Assembly: GCA_902538185.1 (NCBI GenBank)
Contig: CACBED010000004.1
Span: forward strand, 1-34,982
Direction of reading: 5' to 3'
Length of the DNA: 34,982 nucleotides
Origin: an uncultured OCS116 cluster bacterium
GTDB taxonomy: Bacteria > Pseudomonadota > Alphaproteobacteria > Rhizobiales > TMED25
In this document: positions 22,873-28,070 of the stretch, piece after piece
Layout of the letters: each line of letters begins with the position of its first letter
Numbering within the stretch: position 1 is the first letter of the stretch
Translations under genes and position numbers: made by a program
Notes under the pieces: generated by a model
What the model saw: only the letters and a program-made list of their open reading frames with translations
The model's database searches: none
What the model was told of the DNA's origin: nothing

Positions 22873-25005
<2,133 letters not shown>

Positions 25006-25109: not shown

Positions 25110-26093
25110 ATGGATAAAAATAACTTAAAAATGGGACCCCACGACGTTGGCGGAGAAGAATCACTGCCAATTGATACTACTGATAATGATATGACGCACT
25201 GGGAGAAATATGCAAATGCTCTTCGTATTGTGGTATCTTCAAAACGTATCATTACGCTGGATGAACTTAGATACCACACTGAAGCACTCGGAGCTAAATA
25301 TTTTGAAATTGGATATTTTGAGAGGAACTGTTTATCACTTCACAATATCTGTATCCAGAAAGGAATTTATGATAAGGAGCTTTTTCAGAAAATAAAATCA
25401 AGAAAAGTTTCTGAATTTGATGTACCGATTATAGACCTGCCAGATGTGGCTAGTATCAATCACATACATGATGGCAAACCACATTCACATAATGTGTCAG
25501 ATTTTCAGGAAGATGAAAGCGGTGACGGACCTCCTGATTACTACTTTGATACACTGGCGATTGCACAAATATTCATTGATCAAGGTTTGATCACGAATGA
25601 TGATATTAACTTAAAAATTGAGCAGTTTGATAATGTTTTTCCAAATAGAGGAAAAGCTGTTGTAGCTAAAGCATGGTACAATAACTTATTCAAAGAAGCA
25701 TTAATAAAGGATGCAAAAAAAGCAATATCTGATATTGGTATAGAGCTTGAGACTTTTGCTGATATTATATGCATGCCCCAAACAGATACAGTTCACCACA
25801 TTGTTGTCTGTACATTATGCTCTTGCTACCCGCGTACTTTACTTGGTATGCCGCCATCTTGGTATAAATCAAGAAGTTACCGATCGAGGGTTGTGCACGA
25901 GCCACGTGAGGTACTGGCAGAATTTGGTACAATCGTACCCGAAAACAAAGAAATTAAGGTCCATGACTCAAACGCTGATATGAGATATTTAATTTTACCA
26001 CCAAGGCCCTCAAATACTGAAGGCTTATCCGAAGTTGAATTATCAAAACTTGTGGCTCGAGATTATCTTGTAGGAGTTAGATTACCGAATTAA
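25110..26093 (+). CDS. Fused nitrile hydratase / thiocyanate hydrolase-like protein: beta N-terminal domain plus catalytic alpha (gamma) subunit, cobalt-type motif
   Basis: N-terminus MGPHDVGGEESLPI is beta-N/SCNase-beta-like. His-rich linker NHIHDGKPHSHNV. C-terminal GKAVVAKAWYNNLFKEAL...HHIVVCTLCSCYPRTLLGMPPSWYKSRSYRSRVVHEPREVLAEFG...YLILPPRPSNTEGLSEVELSKLVARDYLVGV is an NHase-alpha/SCNase-gamma domain. CTLCSC is the Co-type claw motif. Confidence 0.9.
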   Translation: MDKNNLKMGPHDVGGEESLPIDTTDNDMTHWEKYANALRIVVSSKRIITLDELRYHTEALGAKYFEIGYFERNCLSLHNICIQKGIYDKELFQKIKSRKVSEFDVPIIDLPDVASINHIHDGKPHSHNVSDFQEDESGDGPPDYYFDTLAIAQIFIDQGLITNDDINLKIEQFDNVFPNRGKAVVAKAWYNNLFKEALIKDAKKAISDIGIELETFADIICMPQTDTVHHIVVCTLCSCYPRTLLGMPPSWYKSRSYRSRVVHEPREVLAEFGTIVPENKEIKVHDSNADMRYLILPPRPSNTEGLSEVELSKLVARDYLVGVRLPN

Positions 26094-26097
26094 AGCG

Positions 26098-26382
26098 ATG
26101 GATACAAAATTCAAAATAAATGATGAAATAATTGTCGATAGTAGGAGTTCATCCGGTCATTGTAGGACACCCGCGTATATAAGGGGGAAAAAAGGTGTTA
26201 TTGAGAGAATTTGTGGACGCTATCCTAATCCGGAAGAGATCGCTTTATGCAAAAAAGATCCAAAAATAGTAACGCTGTACAGATGTCGCTTTAAGCAAAT
26301 GGATGTCTGGGATAATTATTCAGGTAAAGCTTCTGATACGATAGAGCTTGAAATATATGAACATTGGCTAAATGATGCTTGA
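26098..26382 (+). CDS. Nitrile hydratase beta C-terminal domain / SCNase-alpha-like subunit as a stand-alone ORF
   Basis: FKINDEIIVDSRSSSGHCRTPAYIRGKKGVIERICGRY...LYRCRFKQMDVWDNYSGKASDTIELEIYEHWLND; GHxRxPxYxRGxxGxIE is the beta-C hallmark. 4 nt after the preceding stop. Confidence 0.88.
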   Translation: MDTKFKINDEIIVDSRSSSGHCRTPAYIRGKKGVIERICGRYPNPEEIALCKKDPKIVTLYRCRFKQMDVWDNYSGKASDTIELEIYEHWLNDA

Positions 26383-26385
26383 AGT

Positions 26386-26904
26386 GTGAAATATATGATT
26401 ACTGGAATAAGCAGAATTGGGCATGTTGGCATTCGTGTTACAGACATAAAACGATCACTAGATTTTTATAAAAATATTTTAGGATTCAAGCTCACTGCTT
26501 ATTGGGAGGATAATAAGCAATGCTTTGTAAGGATAGATGATATGCACCACGAAATTGTATTCTTCGAGATTAATGAGAAGGTAAATCGCCAGGATATTGA
26601 CCAGACAGATACAGCAACAAGACCAAATACTGGTCTAGATCATATAGCCTTTGAAATAAAAGAACGTCAAGACTGGTTAAACGCAATTGAAAAGATGAAA
26701 TCTAATAATGTTAAATTTGTTGTCCCGCCATGCGTTCATGCATATGAGTCAGGTTTCTTCACAGAGGAAGAAGCTCAGTTTTATGGTGGTGCAGGATCGC
26801 ACTCATTTTATATCATTGATCCAGATGGAAATAGATTAGAATTTTATTGGGGTTCGATGAGGGTTACAAAAAAATCACTGGCTGCGCCAAACCCAGAATT
26901 TTGA
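26386..26904 (+). CDS. VOC (vicinal oxygen chelate) / glyoxalase-dioxygenase superfamily protein
   Basis: GHVGIRVTDIKRSLDFYKNILGFKL, GLDHIAFEIK, SHSFYIIDPDGNRLEFYWG; GTG start 3 nt after the NHase beta-C stop. Confidence 0.88.
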   Translation: MKYMITGISRIGHVGIRVTDIKRSLDFYKNILGFKLTAYWEDNKQCFVRIDDMHHEIVFFEINEKVNRQDIDQTDTATRPNTGLDHIAFEIKERQDWLNAIEKMKSNNVKFVVPPCVHAYESGFFTEEEAQFYGGAGSHSFYIIDPDGNRLEFYWGSMRVTKKSLAAPNPEF

Positions 26905-27530: not shown

Positions 27531-28070
27531 TTAGTTATATTTTGACAAATGATAAGCTTTTTCAGATTTATTTACGGTATCGAAATATTCGCCAAAAAGA
27601 TGGGTAAATAATCCATTTAAATACGGACACATAATAGATGTTTGCGCTGGCCTACAATCCTTTTCGTTGTCAATTTTCTCCCCAGATTGAATAATTGCTA
27701 TTGCGTGTGGTGTAGACAAGAGAAAATTATTCCTTTCATATCTATCCTGATTATTGAAAAGATATACCTCCTTCAATGACAGAATTACATCTTCTTTTTT
27801 AACCATCAGGTCACTAGTTTTTATATGAGATATATCACACATCAGAATAATACTGACATCATCTAAAAAAATCTCCCGCCCACTCATAATCTCTATTAAA
27901 TTAATAATATCAGAAATTTTTGATATTTTCTCAACATTAACTTTATAATCTTTACTGTCTGCTTTATTGTATATGAAGATATTATTTTCACTACCCAAGC
28001 AAAATTTCTTAAGATTTAGCCTAAACTGATCTAGAGTTTTTGGTGTTTGTATATCCTTTATTTTTTGCAT
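27531..28070 (-). CDS. Hypothetical protein
   Basis: 179-aa ORF, good ATG start, no antisense competitor; no recognised motif. Confidence 0.6.
   Translation of the reverse strand: MQKIKDIQTPKTLDQFRLNLKKFCLGSENNIFIYNKADSKDYKVNVEKISKISDIINLIEIMSGREIFLDDVSIILMCDISHIKTSDLMVKKEDVILSLKEVYLFNNQDRYERNNFLLSTPHAIAIIQSGEKIDNEKDCRPAQTSIMCPYLNGLFTHLFGEYFDTVNKSEKAYHLSKYN

Follow-up and report, generated by a model that had tools for sequence, protein, structure and literature searches.

Several characterised enzymes bear on the locus described here. In the nitrile hydratase (NHase) of S. canus (ScNHase, AnhD-AnhE-AnhA) the beta-N, beta-C and alpha modules are separate polypeptides (PMC7329996), and the toyocamycin NHase ToyJKL is likewise a characterised three-gene enzyme (PMC8574189, PMC7329996). 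The S. canus beta-N protein AnhD (10.4 kDa; AnhE is 11.35 kDa) forms a complex, AnhD2A, with alpha and is a chaperone both for the metal and for subunit swapping; a separate activator is absent (PMC7329996). In the toyocamycin enzyme the alpha-beta interface is believed to be the strongest and 'beta' is the 10-kDa subunit (PMC8574189), which from the subunit masses only is probably beta-N. Fusions have been described too: the NHase of Monosiga brevicollis is a natural fusion of the whole of beta to alpha (PMC2603476), and an engineered P. putida beta-alpha fusion still needed the activator P14K (PMC4709657). In NHase two beta arginines form salt bridges with the oxidised cysteines (PMC4709657).

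The stretch of DNA analysed (the window, 34,982 nucleotides from an uncultured OCS116 cluster bacterium) encodes beta-N and alpha as one protein followed by beta-C as another. The original prediction was that this is a third architecture beside NHase and thiocyanate hydrolase (SCNase), one not known as a characterised enzyme. The layout is indeed unlike either, and no characterised enzyme with a betaN-alpha fusion and a separate beta-C was found in the open-access literature (subscription journals may differ), but three-gene NHases (AnhDEA, toyocamycin) and the Monosiga beta-alpha fusion were already known, so that the layout cannot simply be counted as the third. Searches of the open-access literature also yielded nothing directly relevant on SCNase active-site residues, OCS116 nitriles or NHase fusions in metagenomes.

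Domain layout and catalytic residues

The fused gene (Table 1) is a single open frame without internal stops in which PF21006 (NHase_beta_N; E 2e-11, 44.4 bits against the Pfam cut-off of 21.5) is followed by a complete PF02979 (NHase_alpha; residues 149-323, E 7.6e-67). When residues 1-147 were searched alone PF21006 still scored 38.6 bits. The second ORF matches PF02211 (NHase_beta_C) above cut-off (E 1.7e-17) and starts after exactly 4 nt (26094-26097) beyond the stop of the fusion. The predicted 327-aa ORF with a beta-N-like beginning and a full alpha/gamma end, and the beta-C half as an ORF of its own, are thus both borne out, and the likeness drawn to scnB joined to scnC with scnA left apart matches these domain assignments and the separate beta-C. 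The first ATG of the fusion lies seven codons 5' of M8; the sequence MGPHDVGG starts at residue 8, where the homologue from the gammaproteobacterium TMED78 begins, and M8 is a possible alternative start.

Comparison with structures gave the same picture. A phmmer search of the PDB with residues 1-99 found NHase beta chains (4fm4_B, E 4.8e-7), SCNase beta being a weak match (2dd4_B, E 0.019); the alpha part is up to 47% identical to chains of NHase alpha. The AlphaFold2 model of the fusion (16 sequences; pLDDT 79, pTM 0.70) has an all-helical N-terminal part, with helices between residues 30 and 102; both parts match NHase chains in Foldseek, the alpha part with a target-normalised TM of 0.85 to P. 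putida NHase alpha. The linker has low pLDDT in the model; aligned with unfused alphas, it corresponds to the His-rich tail with which free alpha/gamma subunits begin.

Table 1. Features of the betaN-alpha and beta-C genes, with positions in the window.
Feature	Position	Strand	Basis
betaN-alpha fusion gene, 327 aa	25110..26093	+	open frame; PF21006 + PF02979; conserved in relatives
beta-N domain, residues 9-98	25134..25403	+	PF21006; phmmer to NHase beta; all-helical in AF2 model
Arg54	25269..25271	+	aligned to position 52 of 3qxe_B; 16/16 fused proteins
His/Asp-rich linker, residues 99-142	25404..25535	+	aligned with unfused alphas; low pLDDT; weaker constraint
catalytic alpha domain, residues 143-327	25536..26090	+	PF02979; Foldseek to P. 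putida NHase alpha
metal-binding motif C-T-L-C-S-C, residues 234-239	25809..25826	+	sequence; invariant in OCS116/TMED78/G044 fusions
Arg242	25833..25835	+	position of SCNase gamma-Arg136 / PtNHase alpha-Trp116
separate beta-C gene, 94 aa	26098..26382	+	PF02211; directly 3' of fusion in relatives
Arg23 of beta-C	26164..26166	+	phmmer start coordinates; GHCR/GHxR motif kept in relatives

The catalytic part belongs to the NHase superfamily both by its PF02979 score, over the cut-off, and by its CxLCSC metal motif, and the beta part by the presence of both catalytic arginines. Arg54 is the counterpart of beta-Arg52 of P. putida NHase. In phmmer alignments residue 3 of the beta-C ORF falls on residue 137 of 1ugp_B and 121 of 2ahj_B, so that, assuming no gap up to Arg23, this arginine corresponds to beta-Arg157 (P. 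thermophila) or beta-Arg141 (Rhodococcus), numbers which, with beta-Arg52, we take to be those of the two cysteine-contacting arginines. As CTLCSC, Arg54 and Arg23 are all present the active-site shell is complete, and the pair probably belongs, with its catalytic machinery intact, to the Arg-type three-part branch of the NHase/SCNase superfamily, this being one part of the overall reading weighed below. One catalytic arginine is carried by the catalytic chain (R54) and the other by a separate small protein (R23 of beta-C). Threonine after the first cysteine of the metal motif marks a Co-type NHase by the classical rule; by that rule the site would be of Co type, and from characterised relatives we infer that cobalt is used.

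Arg242 follows CSCYP, where classical NHases have Trp. SCNase has Arg136 at this place, as was shown by aligning Roseomonas scnC with 2dd4_C, which reads CTLCSCYPRP; it is exactly here that the residues of the two enzymes have been exchanged in PDB entries 3vyg (SCNase R136W) and 3vyh (NHase alpha-W116R). This Trp-to-Arg change of the pocket residue had been overlooked in the original prediction. Arg or Lys is general here in three-gene relatives, including a set on a Streptomyces plasmid annotated as nitrile hydratase, so Arg242 marks the clade and is not diagnostic of SCNase activity.

Relationships, distribution and origin of the fusion

In a tree of alpha domains the Trp-type (classical) and Arg-type proteins were separated with support of 100/100. 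The window protein is nested in the Arg-type clade with three-gene enzymes, and the annotated SCNase gamma also falls inside this clade, on a long branch; the tree points to the Arg-type three-gene clade as the real parent of the fusion. The fused proteins make up two supported clades and constraining them to a single clade was rejected (AU p = 0.003), so beta-N was fused to alpha on at least two occasions, each time with the modules in the same order. The joining would have been to the N-terminus of alpha through alpha's own His-rich tail. In genome G269 (L093:6524-7495, equivalent to L045:1495-2466) the beta-N and alpha genes lie side by side in one frame, with one TAG and a 9-nt spacer between them and no beta-C nearby; this looks like a pre-fusion state and would illustrate the origin of a fusion through loss of a single stop.

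The betaN-alpha fusion is present in 11 of the 12 genomes of the genus, in both genomes of the sister genus and in TMED78, and beta-C is directly downstream at every one of these OCS116, sister-genus and TMED78 loci, with a stop-start (ATGA-type) overlap of the two genes in three of them (L031-L033). The count of genomes with a fusion next to a stand-alone beta-C, proposed as a check on the original prediction, came out in its favour, as did the search in related genomes for a stop between the domains: the same fusion, with its linker conserved, is intact in no fewer than 13 further assemblies drawn from different datasets. The exception within the genus is G005, a near-complete genome without the fusion. 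Against a 95%-identical relative dN/dS was 0.06 for beta-N, 0.06 for alpha and 0.05 for beta-C; over the comparisons with estimable dS it was 0.03-0.06 in beta-N and alpha and 0.11-0.18 in the linker. The fusion is kept in proteins of 57-95% identity from two proteobacterial classes, and it is under strong purifying selection.

Fusions more distant from that of the window occur in two further places. Genome G044 has two copies with the same domain order, and, on a different contig, an orphan Arg-type beta-C (L101:3553-3834, contig C59) unlinked to both, the two contigs concerned being short. Genus g76, from another family (G216, G085 and G314), has others (L094, L095, L096, L097 and L098) that are without a dedicated beta-C and are of two paralogous types, with CTLCSC (Co) or with CSLCSC (Fe) in its place; the only beta-C detected in each g76 genome adjoins that genome's own free beta-N, in G314 and G216 within a complete three-gene set. 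Neither the two independent fusions nor the fused genes with an unlinked or no dedicated beta-C had been noticed in the original prediction.

No further fusions were found in 385 genomes sampled from the class (those of g76 excepted) or, with the fusion alignment, in 398 from the phylum. Three-gene sets, by contrast, are common, and among the closest alphaproteobacterial relatives they occur more often than any other arrangement. The fusion is a rare, conserved arrangement. Sampling across the phylum with TIGR03887 gave no true SCNase, and one was taken from a plasmid instead. Plasmid records gave 178 matches. Three of them cover 80% or more of the query, each in two pieces; in the two that are annotated, separate genes follow one another as beta-C, alpha, beta-N. 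Plasmids of Streptomyces, Polymorphobacter and Agrobacterium (L104, L105 and L118) carry three-gene NHase sets, after which come a cobalt transporter (NicO or CbtBA) and genes for aquaporin, DUF302 or both.

The genes around the pair (katG, a glyoxalase-like gene and, in the sister genus, an amine oxidase) are not conserved with it and indicate no substrate. The window's katG (catalase-peroxidase; 22873-25005, minus strand) is divergent from the fusion and keeps its position within the genus, though not in the sister genus or TMED78. A glyoxalase/dioxygenase-superfamily protein (26386-26904, plus strand) starts 3 nt past beta-C; as it is present only in the closest relatives it is probably outside the system. 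A 179-aa ORF (27531-28070, minus strand) is kept in close relatives and has no Pfam match.

Assembly, maturation and alternative interpretations

The best explanation overall, to which we give a probability of roughly 0.7, is that the pair is an activator-free NHase of the Arg type, in which betaN-alpha and beta-C work together and beta-N serves as a metallochaperone in cis. The fused chain would bring the CTLCSC metal site and R54, and the co-translated beta-C would bring R23, the working unit being betaN-alpha + beta-C, probably twice over. Such an arrangement would make the assembly obligate and fix the stoichiometry of the modules. Gene fusion tends to simplify assembly (PMC4009401; so cited in PMC4709657), and taken with the AnhD2A complex and the strongest interface of the toyocamycin enzyme this suggests that the betaN-alpha fusion most likely fixes the first assembly intermediate. 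The fused beta-N would then replace both a separate activator and alpha swapping. In the 11 genomes of the genus with PF21006 matches these are to the fusion only; the search found no beta-N-like activator of the P14K/NhlE kind besides it, a result consistent, as to beta-N-like activators, with an activator-free enzyme. The cobalt transporter CbtA was detected in seven of the 12 genomes and NicO in none; amidases are in all 12, though common everywhere. By analogy with characterised relatives the window pair would assemble, use cobalt and act as a hydratase, the likely reaction being the addition of water to a C-N triple bond, in small nitriles or cyanide and possibly in thiocyanate.

With the curated profiles the pair stays below the cut-offs of both named classes, NHase and SCNase. 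The alpha domain scores 218.2 bits with the NHase alpha model (cut-off 249.85; classical equivalogs TIGR01323 / TIGR03888), the two beta halves 35.9 and 54.5 bits with the NHase beta model (cut-off 152.2 for each) and the alpha domain 170.6 bits with SCNase gamma TIGR03887 (cut-off 291.45), for which the control, Roseomonas scnC, scores 359. It departs from classical NHase in having beta split over two ORFs and Arg242 rather than Trp after CSCYP. With the three-subunit Arg-type NHases it shares the clade of its alpha domain (support 100/100) and the lack of a separate beta-N-like (PF21006) activator, but beta-N and alpha are one ORF rather than two of three separate polypeptides. The remaining candidate class is SCNase. 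The enzyme would then act on thiocyanate, with SCNase beta (beta-N) and gamma (alpha) forming one chain and SCNase alpha (beta-C) another: Arg242 lies exactly at gamma-Arg136, the annotated SCNase gamma is within the same Arg-type clade and a beta split into N and C parts is common to both. We consider this improbable given a score far below the TIGR03887 cut-off (171 vs 291.5 bits), the absence from the alignment of both the gamma insertion (PTxFGTxSDY) and the YRRRxVRWPR segment, in place of which stands the NHase-like YRSRVVHEPR, and the occurrence of the pocket Arg in three-gene proteins annotated as NHase. Activators are themselves homologous to beta-N (PMC7329996, PMC4709657) and the genus has no other beta-N-like protein, so that the N-terminal domain might instead be a fused activator or swapping chaperone of the P14K/NhlE kind and the whole a maturation intermediate rather than an enzyme. 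This is highly improbable: the best curated model is nitrile_beta, no accessory-protein model matches up to E = 1, the catalytic Arg54 is invariant, a beta-C gene adjoins, and without the N-terminal domain the enzyme would have no beta-N at all. The two interpretations also overlap, as the three-gene enzyme has both jobs in one protein.

That the protein is degenerate, or a hydratase-like relic having nothing to do with cobalt or nitriles and kept for another reason, is suggested by the streamlined genome without obvious pathway neighbours and by the absence of the fusion from G005, yet seems scarcely credible for a gene with such low dN/dS in beta-N and alpha, with all its catalytic residues kept, and retained over the range of divergence given above. 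The assembly from which the window comes is fragmented and 53% complete, and a stop between two genes might have been removed in it by an assembly or sequencing artefact; the many independent assemblies that carry the fusion and its conserved linker exclude such an error, and this interpretation is refuted. To return to the activator-free Arg-type NHase, several points tell against it: the scores below the cut-offs of both NHase alpha (218 vs 249.9) and SCNase gamma, the lack of an adjoining nitrile-pathway gene (katG, glyoxalase-like and amine oxidase genes being there instead), the failure to detect CbtA in five of the 12 genomes and NicO in any, the P14K requirement of the engineered P. putida fusion (PMC4709657) and the identification of toyocamycin 'beta' as beta-N from subunit masses only.

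A wider proposal, which we put forward tentatively and think rather less than even in likelihood, is that the beta-N of Arg-type NHases is primarily a metallochaperone, that its fusion on at least two occasions gave a self-maturing NHase that needs no activator and whose alpha cannot be swapped, and that the g76 fusion (G216, G085, G314) may work without a dedicated beta-C, one paralogue having changed to Fe-type CSLCSC. Whether cobalt uptake and cysteine oxidation in NHase proceed by self-subunit swapping, through a metallochaperone or free of an activator is debated, and a natural protein whose chaperone-like beta-N cannot leave alpha could tell these maturation models apart. The same pair fused repeatedly in the same order would also be a natural case of gene fusion following the assembly pathway, and a marine bacterial NHase that needs two genes and perhaps no activator could make an industrially used enzyme easier to express.

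Comparison with known systems

With classical two-gene Co-type NHases (P. putida 3qxe, P. thermophila 1ire/1ugp) the window pair shares CTLCSC, the equivalents of beta-Arg52 and beta-Arg157 and the alpha fold; there, however, beta is one polypeptide and the pocket has Trp, whereas here beta is split with its N half on alpha. Like SCNase (T. thioparus, PDB 2dd4) it has beta-N and beta-C on separate polypeptides, the Arg136 pocket and the His-rich tail of the gamma N-terminus; unlike SCNase it lacks the gamma insertion and WPR motif, is far below the curated cut-off and has beta-N fused to gamma/alpha. On the Roseomonas plasmid the beta partner beside the annotated scnC combines beta-N and beta-C in one protein of 283 aa (L103:2110-2958), from which it appears that SCNase-like enzymes are not always encoded by three genes.

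The Monosiga brevicollis enzyme resembles the window protein in having a beta module upstream of alpha in one protein and a His-rich joining stretch (PMC2603476), but the whole of beta (N and C) is fused there and only beta-N here, beta-C having its own gene. In the engineered P. putida fusion (PMC4709657), as here, the joining of subunits rules out alpha swapping; that fusion differs in being artificial, in including the whole of beta and in depending on an activator. The three-subunit NHases have the same three modules, and no separate activator was found in S. canus or in this genus. The three-gene relatives tested here, from loci other than that of S. canus, share the Arg-type alpha motif CTLCSCYPR/K with the window protein. 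The S. canus order is beta-N, beta-C, alpha, all separate, an order found also on the Streptomyces plasmid and at most of the alphaproteobacterial loci compared, whereas in the window the gene for a single betaN-alpha protein precedes that for beta-C. What appears to be new here is this betaN-alpha fusion with a separate beta-C, a rearrangement of a known enzyme family that, judging from the alpha-domain tree, has arisen twice.
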